Below, piece after piece: positions 13,482-25,217 of a DNA stretch of 33,736 nt; within the stretch, counting starts at the first letter, position 1, and each line of letters starts with the position of its first letter. The notes under the pieces were generated by a model that did not search any database, was not told where the DNA came from, and saw nothing but the letters and a program-made list of their open reading frames with translations. The position numbers and the translations under genes are program-made. Source of the DNA: a virus; the IMG/VR virus record IMGVR_UViG_3300046804_004810, positions 1-33,736 of that record. The stretch is one strand, 5' to 3'.

Positions 13482-14453
13482 ATGAAAACATTCAAAACAT
13501 TTATTCAACTAGACGAAGGTGTGATTCCTTCGGGTGCTGGAACAAAGGGTTGGTCCCATAGTGGTGCCAAATATTTTGATCAGCTTGCGCCAGAAGATAA
13601 GCGCTATACGTTAGCTAATGATGCACATGGTGCCTCAGCAGGTGAAAAGGTCGAAGTTGTTAGTAAGCCTTATGAAGTCGGCGGCAAAATGCATGTCGAT
13701 ATCAAGCACCCATCGACAGGGAAAAAGGTACCGCTTCGCGTCGATAACCTCCACAAGCCAGGTCTAGAAAACAAATCAAATTCCCGCGACAAAGAAGATC
13801 TTGCGTTCAGTCAATTAACGAGCGGCATCGAGGCAGCAAAGAAACAATCTGGTAAGCCATATATGAATATGAAGATTGGTGGCCAAGTTCATAAAATTGT
13901 TGGCGCCCATCAAATTCCAGGTAACCCGAAAGCGGACTTTGCCTTAGTAAACGATAAAGGCGAACACGTCTACCACATCAGCCATAAAGATGGATCGTTG
14001 CCAAAGCATCATCAAGGATATGCAACCAGCCACAAAGATGTCGAGGACACCGACACGTTTAAGAACTTTATAGGTCTTACTCATGCTGCAGTAGGCGACA
14101 ACCCTGACGCGCTTGAGGGACGTACCGTTGCAGCAAAACTCAACAATAAGAATCCCGAACATCAAGAGATTATCAAGCGGTCAGTGTGGGGTAAAGATCA
14201 TGCGTCTGGCAAAACAGGAATTAATAACGTCGACGTTGTACATCAAGGCGTAATGCGAGTAACGCGCGGCGCTGGTGGCAATTATGAAATTCACTCCGAT
14301 AACGAAATGCATCGCGGAGATGAATTTAAACACCAATATCAAATGCATGTGCGTAAAGCAAGCGACAGAACATTGCCTGGTACAAAGATTAAGGGACGGT
14401 TCTTTGTACACGAAGTGGGCGGTAGAACAAACACAGACGAATTGAAACTATGA
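13482..14453 (+). CDS. Late protein with capsid-targeting-like N-terminus; possible nuclease fold
   Basis: A 323-residue protein beginning MKTFKTFIQLDEG. This resembles the T4 internal-head-protein targeting peptide (MKTYQEFIAEA), including a possible gp21 cleavage site L-D-E before G13. The remainder is basic and His-rich. The segment IPGNPKADFALVNDKGEHVY, followed by HISHKDG, has the D-x(n)-x-K layout (D152, K169) of PD-(D/E)xK nucleases, but a serine stands where D/E is expected, so this is only a suggestion. It overlaps the next gene by four bases (ATGA). Relatives are, I believe, present in aquatic T4-like phages as hypothetical proteins. Confidence 0.75.
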   Translation: MKTFKTFIQLDEGVIPSGAGTKGWSHSGAKYFDQLAPEDKRYTLANDAHGASAGEKVEVVSKPYEVGGKMHVDIKHPSTGKKVPLRVDNLHKPGLENKSNSRDKEDLAFSQLTSGIEAAKKQSGKPYMNMKIGGQVHKIVGAHQIPGNPKADFALVNDKGEHVYHISHKDGSLPKHHQGYATSHKDVEDTDTFKNFIGLTHAAVGDNPDALEGRTVAAKLNNKNPEHQEIIKRSVWGKDHASGKTGINNVDVVHQGVMRVTRGAGGNYEIHSDNEMHRGDEFKHQYQMHVRKASDRTLPGTKIKGRFFVHEVGGRTNTDELKL

Positions 14454-15628
14454 TTACACTCACACAACTTATCGTCGAATCGACGGCAAGCGAAGAAAAG
14501 TTAACTCACTTAGAGCACGCCGAAGATCATCCGATTAATGCTGGCGCGCAAGGATACGAACATGCAAAGCGTACACTAACCTCTGTACACAATGCATTGC
14601 TCGGCGGAAAGTCAGATGCTACGCTATCAACAAAGTTTGACGGATCTCCTTCAATTGTGTTTGGTCATAATCCTGAAAACGGAAAGTTTTTTGTTGCTTC
14701 CAAATCAGCATTCAACAAAAAGCCAAAAATTAATTACACAGAGGAAGATGTTGATCAGAATCATGGTCACGCGCCTGGGTTGGCAGAAAAATTAAAAATA
14801 GCTTTAAAGCATTTACCAAAGGTGTCGCCAAAAGAAGGTGTATTCCAAGGAGATGTCATGCATTCCGGTGGAACACAAGGCGATGTGCAGATGCATGACG
14901 GTAAGGCTAGTTTTACACCGAATACAATCACTTACACAACTACAAAACCTGGTGAAGGTGAGCAAGCAGCAAAATCTAAAATAGGTGTTGCTGTACATAC
15001 TGCGTATCACGGTCCTTCTTTTGCTGGGTTGAAAGCAATGTACAATTCAGGAAACGATCTGCTAAACGAACATCCTGACGTACATTTACTTGATACATCT
15101 TATCATCCAGACAAGGCAACGTATAGTGATGCGGACCGTCAGCAGTTCGAGCAACAAATGGAAGGTGCAGCAGAGCACCACAAGCAATTGAAGGGTGCAG
15201 GATACAAAGCACTTGCTTCTCATACGGACAATTTGAAAACTTACATTAACCGTACTGTCCGCGAAAATACATTTCCGAACGTGGAAGGATACAAACAACA
15301 CGTTCAAGAATTGCATGCTAAAGAAGCTGATAAATTGAAAACTGATGCTTCAAAAAACAAAAAGATTCAAGCAGGCAATGATATATCTGCGGACGTCGAC
15401 AAGAACGCTAAGCACTTCGAAGCAGCTTTCAACCTCCACAGACATCTACAAAACGCAAAAGATGCACTAGGACGAGCACTGTCGACGCACTCGGAATACG
15501 ACCATACTATCGGTAGCCAAAAGGTTAAACCAGAGGGATATGTGGCTGTAATTAATAATCGTCCAACAAAAATTGTCGATAGAGCGGAATTTAGTCGATT
15601 GAATTTCGAGAATTCGCGGAATCGGTAA
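14450..15628 (+). CDS. Ligase/nucleotidyltransferase-like late protein (DUF6267-like)
   Basis: A 392-residue protein starting MITLTQLIVES, another capsid-targeting-like peptide with a potential I-V-E cleavage site. S60-T-K62-F-D64-G65-S-P-S-I matches motif I (KxDG) of the covalent nucleotidyltransferases (RNA/DNA ligases, capping enzymes), where lysine is adenylylated. V131-F-Q-G-D-V-M resembles motif III, and KSKIGVAVHTAY may be motif V. The C-terminal about 180 residues are helical (HKQLKGAGYKALASHTDNLK and on). I recall this family as DUF6267 in phages; activity is unproven. It is coupled to the preceding gene and followed by a late promoter. Confidence 0.75.
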   Translation: MITLTQLIVESTASEEKLTHLEHAEDHPINAGAQGYEHAKRTLTSVHNALLGGKSDATLSTKFDGSPSIVFGHNPENGKFFVASKSAFNKKPKINYTEEDVDQNHGHAPGLAEKLKIALKHLPKVSPKEGVFQGDVMHSGGTQGDVQMHDGKASFTPNTITYTTTKPGEGEQAAKSKIGVAVHTAYHGPSFAGLKAMYNSGNDLLNEHPDVHLLDTSYHPDKATYSDADRQQFEQQMEGAAEHHKQLKGAGYKALASHTDNLKTYINRTVRENTFPNVEGYKQHVQELHAKEADKLKTDASKNKKIQAGNDISADVDKNAKHFEAAFNLHRHLQNAKDALGRALSTHSEYDHTIGSQKVKPEGYVAVINNRPTKIVDRAEFSRLNFENSRNR

Positions 15629-15676: not shown

Positions 15677-17137
15677 ATGACAAATAAACAAGATCCATTT
15701 CAAGATGAAATGACGCTTGGTGACATTGCCTCACTTCGCGGTCAAAAAGAAAAGCAGCCACCAGCCGCTGCTCCTGCTGAGCAAAAACCAGCTCGCAAGC
15801 GCCTATTGCCAATGGCAGACATGCCTGCAGCTCCAGCACCAGATAAAATCATCATAAATCCAAATGTTGGCGAAAAAATCAACGAAAACGCAGAAGAAGG
15901 CGGTCATGCTGTCTTTGCTTTTGGGCGTTTCAATCCTCCTACTGTGGGCCACGAGAAGCTGATACATGCCGTCGAAAAGGTAGCTGACGAGCACGGAGTG
16001 CCAGCAAATATTGTTGCCAGCCACACTCAAAACAAAGATAAAGACCCGCTTCCGCAGGCAAAAAAGGTAGGATATCTGAATAAAATAACTGCTCCAGGTA
16101 CAAATGTAACTGGTTCTTCAAAAGAAGAACCTACTTTTCTTCAGTATGCAGCAAAACTCCATAAACAAGGCGTTCAACATCTACACATGGTAGCGGGTTC
16201 AGATCGCGTCAAAGAATACGAAGAAAAATTGAAAAAATACAACGGGACGCATGAAGGTGCCCTTTTCAATTTTAAAAGCATTACAGTACATTCTGCTGGG
16301 CAAAGAGATCCAGACGCAGAAGGTGTTGAAGGAATGTCGGGTACAAAAATGCGTGCCCACGCGCGCGCCGGTGAAATGGAAGAATTCAAATCTGGATTAC
16401 CGGATGCATTGAAATCGCGTGCCGATGAAATAGCTAAGCATATCCGTAAAGTTGCTGAGTCTACGGAAAATGATATAGAGGATACAATGAAACTAAACGA
16501 ACATACTTTCACCGATAAAGAACGTATTGCACTTCATGAAAAAGCACTTAAAAGTGGAGTGAAATTCGCTGTGCTACGCGAAGTGTATCGTCGCGGCATA
16601 TGGGCTTACAAATACCATACCAATGTTAATCAAACCGCTGAGCAGTATGCTTTTGCTCGTGTCAATTCATTTATTAGTCTTGGTGAAGCTTATCAGATGG
16701 ATAAGGACCTCCGTGATATAGATGAAGCTGTCGATCTTCAAGCTCGTATGAAGCGTAAAGTCACGATGGCAATGTATCGTAAGAAAATCGAACGTGCTCG
16801 CGAGATTGCTTCTAAGCGTTTTGCTAAGAATAAAAACCTACGTGCCCGCTCACTTAAGATTGCTCGCAACACATTGAGAAAACGTCTTGGTGGTGCAAGA
16901 GGTGCTGGTTATTCTAAACTATCCTCAGCACAAAAGATTGCTGTCGATAAATTGCTAGACGGACGTCAAAAGCAAATTAAAGCAATTGCAAATAAAATTA
17001 TTACACGTGTCAAGCGCGATGAAGCCAACCGTATGTCTGGAACAAGAACATCGACCGCTAAAGCTGTTGTCGCAAGTTATGAACCAGCTTCACTTAATAC
17101 GCTGGTTGAAAAATATACCAAGAAAGCAGGTGAGTGA
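15677..17137 (+). CDS. Three-part fusion: adenylyltransferase-like domain plus two basic phage modules
   Basis: A 486-residue protein. After a Pro/Ala-rich leader, residues about 77-260 form a cytidylyltransferase/NMN adenylyltransferase-like fold. VFAFGRFNPPTVGH (79-92) corresponds to the H-x-G-H motif with Thr for the first His, and G219-M-S-G-T-K-M-R226 to the ISxTxxR motif. Residues about 271-350 carry a domain with LREVYRRGIWAY and QYAFARVNSFISLGEAY, resembling a module recurrent in phage head-region proteins. Residues about 355-486 are strongly basic (KIERAREIASKRFAKNKNLR) and likely bind nucleic acid. No good Shine-Dalgarno is seen. The 5' end is served by the late promoter at 15630. 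Confidence 0.8.
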   Translation: MTNKQDPFQDEMTLGDIASLRGQKEKQPPAAAPAEQKPARKRLLPMADMPAAPAPDKIIINPNVGEKINENAEEGGHAVFAFGRFNPPTVGHEKLIHAVEKVADEHGVPANIVASHTQNKDKDPLPQAKKVGYLNKITAPGTNVTGSSKEEPTFLQYAAKLHKQGVQHLHMVAGSDRVKEYEEKLKKYNGTHEGALFNFKSITVHSAGQRDPDAEGVEGMSGTKMRAHARAGEMEEFKSGLPDALKSRADEIAKHIRKVAESTENDIEDTMKLNEHTFTDKERIALHEKALKSGVKFAVLREVYRRGIWAYKYHTNVNQTAEQYAFARVNSFISLGEAYQMDKDLRDIDEAVDLQARMKRKVTMAMYRKKIERAREIASKRFAKNKNLRARSLKIARNTLRKRLGGARGAGYSKLSSAQKIAVDKLLDGRQKQIKAIANKIITRVKRDEANRMSGTRTSTAKAVVASYEPASLNTLVEKYTKKAGE

Positions 17138-17586
17138 TGGACTTAGTTGAACTAATGAACAAGGCATTGGCAGATACTTTTGTGATGTATCTGAAAGCAC
17201 ACTCATTTCACTGGAACGTTGAAGGAGCAGACTTCTATCAGTATCATGGTCTCTTCGATGCGATTTATAGTGAGGTGTATGGTGCTGTAGATCCAATGGC
17301 GGAACACATACGTGCCTTAGATGGATATGCGGCAGGTACAATGGTTCGCTTCCAAGCACTGACCTCAATCAAAGAAACCGTTACTGTGCCACCAGCTCGT
17401 GATATGTTGCATGACCTACAATCTGCTAACGATAAAGTGATGGCGACGATTAAAAATGTCCAGCAACATGCTGAGCGCCAAGGAGAAATCGGCCTTGCAA
17501 ACTTCTTGCAAGATCGCTACGATGCGCACGCTAAACACGCTTGGATGATTCGCTCAACATTAAAGACGAGATCAGCAGATGAATAA
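17137..17586 (+). CDS. Dps-like ferritin
   Basis: A 149-residue protein of the Dps/ferritin family. The ferroxidase ligand set is complete with canonical spacing: H25 (HSFHWNVEG), H37, D52 and E56 (DPMAEHIR). Dps proteins form 12-subunit shells that oxidise and store iron and protect DNA. Length is slightly below bacterial Dps (about 165), with no obvious DNA-binding lysine tail. The ATG at 17137 overlaps the preceding stop (TGATG) and was preferred to GTG 17134. It sits among late head-region genes, so it may act in or on the virion rather than in general stress. It overlaps the next gene by 8 bases. Confidence 0.9.
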   Translation: MDLVELMNKALADTFVMYLKAHSFHWNVEGADFYQYHGLFDAIYSEVYGAVDPMAEHIRALDGYAAGTMVRFQALTSIKETVTVPPARDMLHDLQSANDKVMATIKNVQQHAERQGEIGLANFLQDRYDAHAKHAWMIRSTLKTRSADE

Positions 17587-20579: not shown

Positions 20580-21836
20580 ATGACAGATCGCTCTAAAAAA
20601 CTTTCGGAGCTGACGGCATTAACCGTAGCTACGGCAAACGATGCAATGATTGTTGTTGCAAATGTTGCAGGTAATACTGCTACACGAAAACTAACAGTCG
20701 GCAATCTGTTTGCTAACGTTTCCACTCCAACATCTTTTAATGCAAACGTATCTCTTCGCGGAGGTACGTTGTCCGTCAACAATAACGTTGTTATTGCTGC
20801 TAACGGGATGTGGATGGGTTCGGCTATGGTTAGTAATGGATCGAAAGGTGAGAAAGGCGATGTCGGCACAAACGGCATTAAAGGCGACAAAGGCGCTTAT
20901 GGAGCTGATGGTGCTAAAGGTGATAAAGGCGAGCAGGGAATTCCTGGCACCGCCGCAAATAAAGGCGATAAAGGTGAAAAGGGTGACTCGGGTCCGACTG
21001 GTAACCTTGGTCCTAAAGGAGACACTGGTCCTGCAGGCTCCGCTGGTATAACTGGCGATAAGGGTATCAAGGGAGATATTGGTCCTAAGGGGGATGTTGG
21101 TCCTAAAGGTGACAAAGGAGCGCGTGGAGCTTTTGGTGGCGCAGCTTTTGTATTCACATTCTTATCCGACACTGCTAACACAGACCCGGGTATAGGTAAA
21201 GTTAAATTGAACACAGCACAGCCATCAACGGCAACAAAGCTGTTTATTGATCATATAGATCTGAATTTAATTGACGCTACTGATTTTCTTGAGACGGTTG
21301 ACGATTCTACATCTCCGATTAAAGGTCATTTTGAAATTGTAGCAGTCGATGATCCGACAAAGTATTCTATCTTTGCTATAACTGGCACACATTCGAAGTA
21401 CGGTGGAAGTTCTGGTTGGTATGAAATACCAATTACATTCACTTCTGGATCAAACCTTGCGTTTACAAACGACACTGCGGTCTCCCTTACATTCACACGT
21501 ACTGGCGATGTCGGCCCCAAAGGTGATAAAGGTGAAGTAGGAAACATAAGTTCCGGAGGATCGGTTTCTGGAAGTATTGTTCCTACACAAGACAATGTGT
21601 ATACGTTAGGAGATGTGGCAGCTAGATTCAGCGATATCCATAACGTCACGTTGAATTCAAACACAGTCAATGCAAATACCACGATAACAAATAATTTAAG
21701 AATAGCAAATACTAGCAATGCGCCAGCAAGTGCTACGGCTACAGGCACGACCGGTGAAGTGAGAATCGATCAAAACTTCATCTACGTTTGTGTAAATACA
21801 AATACATGGAAGAGGGCTGCTTTAAGTTCGTGGTAA
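20580..21836 (+). CDS. Collagen-like fibre protein
   Basis: A 418-residue trimeric fibre candidate. Residues 1-86 are a beta-rich attachment part (MTDRSKKLSELTALTVATAN). Residues 87-186 are Gly-X-Y repeats (about 33 triplets, many GDK, GPK and GEK), with one break at 124-128 where a glycine is missing. A second short Gly-X-Y block occurs at about 309-321, after an inserted globular domain (188-308). The C-terminus, GTTGEVRIDQNFIYVCVNTN then TWKRAALSSW, matches the end modules of T4-like tail or fibre proteins. It would form a triple-helical shaft. Likely exposed on the virion for host contact. Confidence 0.88.
   Translation: MTDRSKKLSELTALTVATANDAMIVVANVAGNTATRKLTVGNLFANVSTPTSFNANVSLRGGTLSVNNNVVIAANGMWMGSAMVSNGSKGEKGDVGTNGIKGDKGAYGADGAKGDKGEQGIPGTAANKGDKGEKGDSGPTGNLGPKGDTGPAGSAGITGDKGIKGDIGPKGDVGPKGDKGARGAFGGAAFVFTFLSDTANTDPGIGKVKLNTAQPSTATKLFIDHIDLNLIDATDFLETVDDSTSPIKGHFEIVAVDDPTKYSIFAITGTHSKYGGSSGWYEIPITFTSGSNLAFTNDTAVSLTFTRTGDVGPKGDKGEVGNISSGGSVSGSIVPTQDNVYTLGDVAARFSDIHNVTLNSNTVNANTTITNNLRIANTSNAPASATATGTTGEVRIDQNFIYVCVNTNTWKRAALSSW
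20838..21137 (+). repeat. Collagen-like Gly-X-Y coding repeat
   Basis: An approximate 9-base repeat of the type GGTGATAAAGGC, GGTCCTAAAGGA and similar, encoding about 33 Gly-X-Y triplets. The units vary at third positions, so this is protein-level repetition kept by selection rather than a recent DNA expansion. It is a coding repeat, not CRISPR. Confidence 0.85.
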
Positions 21837-23279: not shown

Positions 23280-25217
23280 ATGCATAATTTACCTATTGCC
23301 CCACTACCAGCGAATGTCAATATTACAATTGAAGAGTTAGAATCTCTTGGTGCGACTGTAGTGCCGCTACAGGAAGCTGAAGTTGTGCCAACGATTGCGC
23401 AACTAGCTGCAAGTCCAAGCTCGCAAGTCTTGCGTGAATATATTGTATCCGTACATAACTTTGAAGATATTGACAGTTTATATGAAGATATGGAGAGTCC
23501 TGGAGGCTCATTATACATTCCAAATAGACGTGTGGAAGTAGCAGCACGCCGTCCGATAAGCAGAAACACACATTATTGGTTGACGGACATAGAAGCTCTT
23601 ATGCTGCAGAGCGATCCGCGCGTATGCTACGTGGGATTGACACCTGAAGAACGACAGATCGTTAAACATGCATTTGGCTCTGTGTCGTACCAACAACAAA
23701 GTTCAAATTTTAGTAAGGCTGGCAGTAACGACGTATCATTTCGTAACTGGGCGTTACTTAGGAATACTAGAGGATCTCACATACCAGGATGGGGATCTGA
23801 AACCGGTCAAACGCCGCAGCAAACAGGCAATATTACTAGGTATGATACAGGCAAGCACGTCGATGTCGTTATATGTGATGCACAATTTGATCCTTCGCAT
23901 CCAGAATATCAATGGAACTCTGATGGCACTGGTGGCACTCGTGTTGTTCAGTATAACTGGTATCAGCTTGACCCCATTGTAAAGGGTACTACTGCAGGCA
24001 CGTCGTACGTGTATAATACGACGTATGGAGCTCACGGCACTCACGTTGCAGGAATAGCATGTGGAAATAGACACGGTTGGGCCCGTGAAGCCAACATCTA
24101 CAATTTCGATCCGTTAGGCACAAATCCAAACGGAACCACTGCAACTTCTTATATCTTTGATTATTTGCAAGCGTTCCACAAAAACAAAACAATTAACCCT
24201 GCAACGGGGAGACGCAACCCAACAGTTGCTAACCATAGCTGGGGGTATAGTACGTACTTGATGGATGTTAATTACATTGATAGTATCAACCGCTTGGGTA
24301 GCGTTGCCGCTGCTCCTAACGCAAACACGTTGACATATCTCGTGTTTTACGGAGAGCAAGTTGGATTTACTTCAGCATATGCTAATGGATTGGCTTTTAC
24401 ATGCTGGCAATCGGCTACTAGAGACACCTCGACTGATATTTCGATTAATGATTGTACAGCAAACGGCGTAATCAACGTATGTTCTGCAGGAAATTCATAT
24501 GGGATGCAGGATGTGCCAGGCGGCACATACTACAACAACTATATCCGCATGAACGCATCGGCACCAAATCGTGGAACGGAGTTTGGGGGAGCGAATACGA
24601 CATTCTATACTAGACGTGGTACATCTCCAGCCGCAGCGGAAAACGTCATATGTGTTGGTAATTTAGGTACGCAGCAGACGGTTGATAACGGTTCTGGTGT
24701 TCAAATATGGGCCAACGGCGCAAGCTATGTTGGCACGAAAGAAGTTAAATCTGCATCAAGCGAAACTGGTCCTAGAGTTGATATATGGGCTCCGGGAGAA
24801 AACATAATGAGTGCAGCGCCAGGTGGTGCTGGCGTCGCAGATGATCGCAACGGTTCATTCGGAATGCAAATCATGACTGGAACGTCAATGGCAGCTCCTC
24901 AGATCACAGGATATGTTGCCTGTATAGCGAGCCAGTACCCAAATATGACGCCTGCCGAAATGAAAGCTTTCATAAAGACACAGGCATCCGATACACCGCT
25001 CGGAAACACGAATATGTGGGGCGGCACGCCATGGGGCAACCCAACCGGTTATCCATTCGACTGGTTGACTGATGTTAGGGGTGGAACAAACAAAGTATTC
25101 TATCTACAAGACATTAAACCAGACGAAGGTGTTGCTAAGCCTTTGATTAAATACAAAACGCGACCAGCATCAGGCGCAGTATATCCACGTCCTAACAGGA
25201 CACACCGTGTGACGTAA
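23280..25217 (+). CDS. Subtilisin-like serine protease in the fibre operon
   Basis: A 645-residue protein with a complete S8 catalytic triad: D200 (VVICDAQFDPSHPEY), H252 (AHGTHVAG) and S536 (GTSMAAP). Oxyanion N405 lies in CSAGNS. Residues 1-150 form an N-terminal part with a possible cleaved or inhibitory segment; a roughly 70-residue tail follows the catalytic domain. No signal peptide is seen, so it is likely carried on the virion. It could mature fibres or digest host surface proteins. It lies between two structural genes in the same late operon. Confidence 0.9.
   Translation: MHNLPIAPLPANVNITIEELESLGATVVPLQEAEVVPTIAQLAASPSSQVLREYIVSVHNFEDIDSLYEDMESPGGSLYIPNRRVEVAARRPISRNTHYWLTDIEALMLQSDPRVCYVGLTPEERQIVKHAFGSVSYQQQSSNFSKAGSNDVSFRNWALLRNTRGSHIPGWGSETGQTPQQTGNITRYDTGKHVDVVICDAQFDPSHPEYQWNSDGTGGTRVVQYNWYQLDPIVKGTTAGTSYVYNTTYGAHGTHVAGIACGNRHGWAREANIYNFDPLGTNPNGTTATSYIFDYLQAFHKNKTINPATGRRNPTVANHSWGYSTYLMDVNYIDSINRLGSVAAAPNANTLTYLVFYGEQVGFTSAYANGLAFTCWQSATRDTSTDISINDCTANGVINVCSAGNSYGMQDVPGGTYYNNYIRMNASAPNRGTEFGGANTTFYTRRGTSPAAAENVICVGNLGTQQTVDNGSGVQIWANGASYVGTKEVKSASSETGPRVDIWAPGENIMSAAPGGAGVADDRNGSFGMQIMTGTSMAAPQITGYVACIASQYPNMTPAEMKAFIKTQASDTPLGNTNMWGGTPWGNPTGYPFDWLTDVRGGTNKVFYLQDIKPDEGVAKPLIKYKTRPASGAVYPRPNRTHRVT

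Follow-up and report, generated by a model that had tools for sequence, protein, structure and literature searches.

The whole stretch of DNA analysed here, referred to as the window, is a virus record of 33,736 nt (33.7 kb; IMGVR_UViG_3300046804_004810) with a T4-like replication block. Its plus strand carries an ATG-initiated open reading frame encoding 392 aa, and its start codon shares an ATGA with the stop codon of the gene upstream (Table 1). The 392-aa product matched Pfam DUF6267 (PF19782; E 1.2e-94, 318 bits against a cut-off of 27), with residues 19-388 aligned to profile positions 2-374 of 376 and the gathering score exceeded, and it also matched phrog_455 (E 2.5e-95). Both DUF6267 and PHROG 455 are families without an assigned function in Pfam and PHROG, respectively. 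The same gene order (UvsX, helicase, unknown gene, DUF6267, cytidylyltransferase), interrupted by insertions, is seen in HTVC008M, P-HM1, S-SM1 and others. Elsewhere in the window we noted a rubrerythrin together with a ferritin/Dps-type protein (1088-1534 and 17134-17586), a collagen-repeat protein that is likely a fibre (20580-21836; PF01391, E 3e-15) and, amid structural-type genes, a subtilase-family protein (23280-25217; Peptidase_S8, E 1.5e-26).

Table 1. Genes and sequence features at the DUF6267 locus of the window.
Feature	Position	Strand	Basis
UvsX	from 9595		PHROG profile match
2OG-Fe oxygenase	from 10568		PHROG profile match
gp41-type helicase	from 11226		PHROG profile match
Upstream gene, phrog_13937, function unassigned	13482..14453	+	relaxed tag form (MKTFKTFIQLDEG)
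DUF6267 protein (PF19782), predicted covalent nucleotidyltransferase, ligase superfamily	14450..15628	+	ORF, Pfam, PHROG, fold
N-terminal tag MITLTQLIVE/S (predicted cut at the slash), T4 IPIII CTS register (hydrophobic 4, 7, 8; E10)	14450..14482	+	sequence, model
H20xxH23xE25D26 signature before motif I	14507..14530	+	39/39 representatives
Motif I, K62-F-D64-G65, predicted adenylylated lysine	14633..14644	+	39/39; 40/40
Motif III-like, Q133-G-D135	14846..14854	+	Q133, D135 39/39; G134 36/39
Helical segment, residues 227-344, between motifs III and IV	15128..15481	+	DSSP of model
Motif IV, E362-G363-Y-V365	15533..15544	+	E, G, V 39/39
Motif V, K374-I-V-D-R378	15569..15583	+	K, R 39/39
Partner, cytidylyltransferase/NMNAT-like (CTP_transf_like), untagged here	15677..17137	+	PF01467 E 1.1e-5; phrog_3041; second half of phrog_455
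Partner motif GRFNPPTVGH	15923-15952	+	sequence
Partner motif GMSGTKMR	16331-16354	+	sequence

DUF6267 relatives were present in 468 of the 50,697 phage records searched, all with less than 60% identity to the window protein. Most of these records are cyanophages (by name Synechococcus, 369; Cyanophage, 61; Prochlorococcus, 24; plus others), and the annotation was mainly 'hypothetical protein' among the matches listed. Among the papers available to a literature search, none names DUF6267, PF19782, phrog_455 or T4-GC 71. Family members were sampled from five scans (four of IMG/VR and one of GTDB contigs) and from annotated records, which yielded 328 segments. The 306 near-full-length segments were clustered at <60% identity into 39 representatives, and 22 partial segments were excluded; addition of S-CREM2 gp87 to the representatives gave a 40-row alignment (A2). 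One sampled piece, from IMGVR_UViG_3300047560_003134 (L001), was 99% identical to that of the window. An untagged DUF6267 gene was also found in a 188-kb contig from the assembly of a cultured bacterium, Nonlabens xiamenensis (L089).

Conservation across the representatives was concentrated in short motifs. H20, H23, E25, D26, K62, D64, G65, P67, Q133 and D135 were invariant (39/39), as were P157, N158, Y162, H183, T184, Y186, E362, G363, V365, K374 and R378, and the catalytic set (K62, D64, G65, Q133, D135, E362, G363 and K374) was invariant in all 40 rows of A2. We take K62-x-D64-G65, Q133-x-D135, E362-G363 and K374, which occur in this order, to be nucleotidyltransferase motifs I, III, IV and V. 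The KxDG motif is not a chance occurrence, because K62, D64, G65, Q133 and D135 are identical in every one of the 39 representatives drawn from the 306 near-full-length sequences. An earlier note on this DNA had read STKFDGSPSI (residues 60-69) as a nucleotidyltransferase signature and FQGDVM (residues 132-137) as a plausible motif III, a reading it would have given up if K62 or D64 varied among homologues. Both stretches lie where the note placed them and K62 and D64 do not vary; motifs IV (E362-G363) and V (K374...R378), missing from that note, are equally invariant. Motif III carries D instead of E and motif V has one lysine; a motif III Glu and a fuller motif V are the usual residues of the superfamily. 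The stretch equivalent to residues 205-345 spans 137-156 residues in 37 of the 39 representatives and 98-102 residues in two short cyanophage forms.

An AlphaFold model of the window protein, built on a 31-sequence alignment, had a pLDDT of 90.3 and a pTM of 0.88, with residues 1-14 disordered (pLDDT below 50). All 50 rows listed by VIA-align for this model, which hold only the chains ranked highest by Foldseek, were RNA or DNA ligases. The best row was the Naegleria gruberi RNA ligase (NgrRnl; Z 9.7, rmsd 3.6, 183 residues, model residues 16-388), and T4 Rnl2 (Z 7.7) and T4 Rnl1 (Z 7.5) were also listed. We also modelled a short cyanophage form that shares 32% identity with the window protein (pLDDT 90.2); again all 50 rows listed were ligases, the Naegleria RNA ligase being best (Z 8.8, rmsd 3.9, 176 residues). 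These best Z values, obtained from predicted models, slightly exceed the range stated as middling. Because the alignment for the second model includes the window protein, the two are not wholly independent. Foldseek against the PDB gave no match at E<=0.001 for either model; in the weaker list ligases led for the second model, and capping enzymes were present in the list for the window protein. The 17 BFVD matches that Foldseek returned at E<=0.001 include no annotated ligase and consist of uncharacterised phage proteins, phage proteins named as cytidyltransferases and one labelled NrdB.

Sequence comparisons did not reach a ligase family. Searches against solved structures gave no match for the window protein or for alignment A1, and the 11 chains matched by A2 (E 0.09 or worse) all aligned with the helical segment. 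Comparison with phage RNA ligases by HHalign was not significant (P 0.049), the sole aligned stretch placing motif I on motif I; the comparison with a DNA ligase, a possible relative, likewise failed (P 0.58), and the values for helicase and cytidylyltransferase were P 0.12 and P 0.39. PF09511 matched 1 of 40 members, below its curated cut-off (E 0.04). Neither PF09414 nor PF01068 matched at DUF6267 in the eight records searched, and three PF01068 matches lay elsewhere in G001, G002 and G003. Separate DNA ligases were present in three related records, one of which also had a separate RNA ligase. With these motifs and this predicted fold, and with the profiles unmatched, the protein would therefore be a ligase-type nucleotidyltransferase outside the known ligase profiles.

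The closest comparison is with NgrRnl, T4 Rnl1 and T4 Rnl2, which resemble DUF6267 in predicted fold and in the order of motifs I, III, IV and V. The residues mutated in NgrRnl according to PDB titles (K170, D172, E227, E312 and K326) occur in the same order as K62, D64, D135, E362 and K374, a correspondence of order only, without superposition. DUF6267 differs from these ligases in its lack of a significant sequence match, the D in motif III, the long helical segment before motif IV, the HxxHxED signature before motif I and the N-terminal tag. NAD+-dependent DNA ligase (LigA) has an N-terminal NMN-binding domain Ia, and DUF6267 has the invariant HxxHxED before motif I, for which a relation to Ia would be conjectural. 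The fold comparison proposed in the earlier note gave a covalent nucleotidyltransferase fold in both models and no unrelated one, and the ligase-like class it suggested is well supported by predicted fold and invariant motifs. On conserved residues and modelled structure, DUF6267 very probably belongs to the covalent nucleotidyltransferases. We regard it as a new family of a known kind of enzyme, with a delivery route that is unusual and unproven.

That route is suggested by the N-terminus. The first ten residues of T4 IPIII suffice for packaging, with targeting dependent on positions 4 and 7 and processing on positions 8 and 10 (PMC9026906, available in part). The N-terminus of the window protein (M1 I2 T3 L4 T5 Q6 L7 I8 V9 E10, then S11) matches this ten-residue register as far as that text describes it. 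The first ten residues of T4 IPII, IPIII and the window protein fall in one register, and in the window protein they are disordered in the model and followed by a site after E10 resembling that of the head protease. The window protein differs from IPII and IPIII in its ligase-like cargo and in that packaging is here a prediction from sequence. Our literature search, over texts partly available, found no paper describing a T4-type capsid-targeting tag in cyanophages.

We searched for the tag with a strict pattern (M..[FL]..[FYL][LI].E), which was present in 23 of the 39 DUF6267 representatives. With Y allowed at position 4 it was again found in 23/39, and among 6295 distinct internal Met contexts it occurred once; relaxed patterns have a background near 0.9% (54/6295). 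Several members (Nonlabens L089, P-HM1, the S-PM2 type and short cyanophage forms) have no tag and begin directly at HLEHxED, so that the tag is modular. In a related 202-kb contig (G001) the tag was found on 1 of 259 called genes, that for DUF6267, and at none of 966 internal ATGs. A scan of T4 found ipII, ipIII, gp61.1 and one unannotated ORF and missed ipI and alt. The DUF6267 of Stenotrophomonas phage DLP6 (L095) is tagged (MMKFTQFLAES). Tagged enzymes also lie near DUF6267 at other loci: an adenylate kinase (L083:6200-6775; PF00406, E 3e-37), an HD_4 hydrolase (L241:2453-2998; E 4e-17), a protein with a weak HAD-type phosphatase match (L042:6167-6769) and a small CTP_transf_like protein below the cut-off (L042:6772-7380).

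Tagged genes were compared with two published virion lists, which cover untagged DUF6267 forms only. The S-CREM2 list has 52 proteins (PMC10665884). The strict tag was found on 5 of 219 S-CREM2 CDS, and four of the five are virion proteins (SAM hydrolase gp6, gp13, kinase gp14 and cytidylyltransferase gp154; the fifth is a CDS of 55 aa), against 48 of the 214 untagged CDS (one-sided Fisher P 0.012; loose pattern, P 0.029). This enrichment was not repeated in S-SZBM1 with the strict pattern, judged by its list of 30 virion proteins (PMC9146016). There, cytidylyltransferase SSZBM1_140 is listed and has a tag shorter by one residue, the strictly tagged small CDS SSZBM1_191 and SSZBM1_192 are absent from the 30 proteins, and other loose matches, such as recombinase SSZBM1_147, look like background. 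SSZBM1_191 and SSZBM1_192 (L350, 122311-123125) adjoin a virion structural gene. The virion cytidylyltransferase of S-SM1 (PMC3037559, available in part) starts MKKFSAFLNEAE and is tagged; the available part of that text does not name DUF6267. The untagged DUF6267 homologues S-CREM2 gp87 and S-SZBM1_141 are absent from the respective lists (PMC10665884, PMC9146016). For these enzymes the data agree with the tag marking virion proteins, the DUF6267 forms compared being untagged.

By eye, about 50 further residues after the tag seem to be common to the virion kinase gp14 of S-CREM2 (L344:10579-12846) and the S-SM1 cytidylyltransferase (L102:23257-24417). S-CREM2 gp12 (L344:7704-10313), annotated as Cas9-like and present in the virion list, has a tag-like RFASFMAEA about 16 residues in and no Pfam match at E<=0.001.

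The gene that follows DUF6267 encodes the cytidylyltransferase/NMNAT-like protein known from cyanophage virions (T4-GC190). Across 284 DUF6267 loci with room, a CTP_transf_like gene was found in 231, within 1.5 kb downstream in 175 and fused in 56 (phrog_455 being the single-polypeptide form); 53 had no partner, 42 further loci were without room, and the rows are not independent. The partner, which belongs to a different nucleotidyltransferase superfamily from DUF6267, is tagged in many phages, and in the window it is untagged whereas DUF6267 is tagged. Published work places it in the virions of S-SM1, S-CREM2 and S-SZBM1, and in all three it is tagged, the S-SZBM1 tag being one residue shorter. 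NMNAT-like virion proteins have been proposed to tune host NAD and may merely be infection leftovers (PMC9602691, PMC10665884, both available in part). Fusions with a scorable N-terminus were untagged in 45 of 47 cases. By the strict pattern, the tag was on DUF6267 only at 74 loci, on the partner only at 77, on both at 15 and on neither at 24; for 29 representative pairs the corresponding counts were 16, 4, 4 and 5. The idea that exactly one of the two proteins is tagged was dropped, these counts not being convincing.

The predicted chemistry leaves room for activities other than end joining. DUF6267 could be a covalent nucleotidyltransferase whose acceptor for AMP or GMP is a protein, a small molecule or, as in capping, an RNA 5' diphosphate, and which acts together with the NMNAT-like partner. 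Capping enzymes have the same fold and are among the weak Foldseek matches, the partner is itself a nucleotidyltransferase fused to DUF6267 at 56 loci, and sequence profiles reached no ligase family; the VIA rows listed, among the chains that Foldseek ranked highest, were nevertheless ligases only, and we consider a non-ligase activity possible but rather unlikely. Ligase activity is the probable function, and the substrate would most likely be RNA. Asp for Glu in motif III and the reduced motif V, set against the usual residues, might instead indicate a protein that kept the fold as a non-catalytic scaffold or as a binder of RNA or DNA ends. A dead enzyme is not expected, because K62, D64, E362 and K374 are retained in 39 of 39 divergent members, and this explanation is very unlikely.

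Whether the protein travels in the virion is a closer matter. It could be produced in the infected cell and act there, unpackaged, its tag-like N-terminus serving otherwise, for example in partner binding. Consistent with this, untagged homologues exist that are not detected in virions (on the S-CREM2 and S-SZBM1 lists), the genes lie shortly after the replication genes uvsX and gp41, and neither protein is tagged in 5 of the 29 representative pairs. Against it stand the match of the tag to the T4 CTS register, the occurrence of the tag on unrelated proteins, including the four S-CREM2 virion proteins among five tagged CDS, and the same-locus partner that recurs as a virion protein. We judge an unpackaged enzyme to be quite conceivable, short of probable, and packaging of the window DUF6267 protein is predicted with slight preference. 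That the targeting-like N-terminus of the earlier note is a T4-like tag is supported by its register, its rarity elsewhere and its presence on virion enzymes detected by mass spectrometry, and further by its absence from DUF6267 homologues not found in virions. Counting against delivery in the head, the tag in G001 is on DUF6267 alone, though one might expect to see it on several head proteins.

The reading we favour as probable is that of a covalent nucleotidyltransferase, likely a ligase that joins ends, which would enter the cell along with the phage genome. The family assignment, conservation, predicted fold, tag statistics and gene linkage come from the analysis itself, and from them we infer chemistry, substrate, packaging and injection. 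Lysyl-AMP would form by attack of K62 on the alpha phosphate of ATP (or NAD+), in a pocket built by D135, E362, K374 and R378. The AMP would then pass to a nucleic-acid 5' end, most likely of RNA, and the end would be sealed, the helical segment (residues 227-344) probably shaping the substrate site. The first ten residues would act as a T4-type capsid-targeting sequence with which the protein enters the prohead, where the prohead protease would cut after E10. The enzyme would be ejected with the DNA and may repair or alter nucleic-acid ends soon after infection begins, working with the NMNAT-like partner. That hosts defend themselves by cleaving RNA and that phages repair RNA is well established (PMC9503650), and the available part of that text does not mention the DUF6267 family. 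Phage enzymes have likewise been proposed to be packaged and injected as polyvalent proteins (Iyer et al. 2017, PMC5512222), in a text whose available part mentions neither DUF6267 nor the tag.

A more far-reaching version, which we hold to be improbable, is a ligase that arrives with the virion, runs on NAD+ and has its own recycler, the tag marking a wider enzyme cargo in aquatic T4-like phages. DUF6267 would take AMP from NAD+, the invariant HxxHxED would hold the NMN half, and the NMNAT-like partner, adjacent or fused, would convert the released NMN back to NAD+. If this were true, tagged partners would be loaded in the head and end repair would precede phage gene expression; the tag cargo would comprise SAM lyase, kinase, adenylate kinase, HAD phosphatase and HD hydrolase. 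For DUF6267 itself, a likely catalytic lysine and a predicted fold are now proposed, and with these its function becomes testable.
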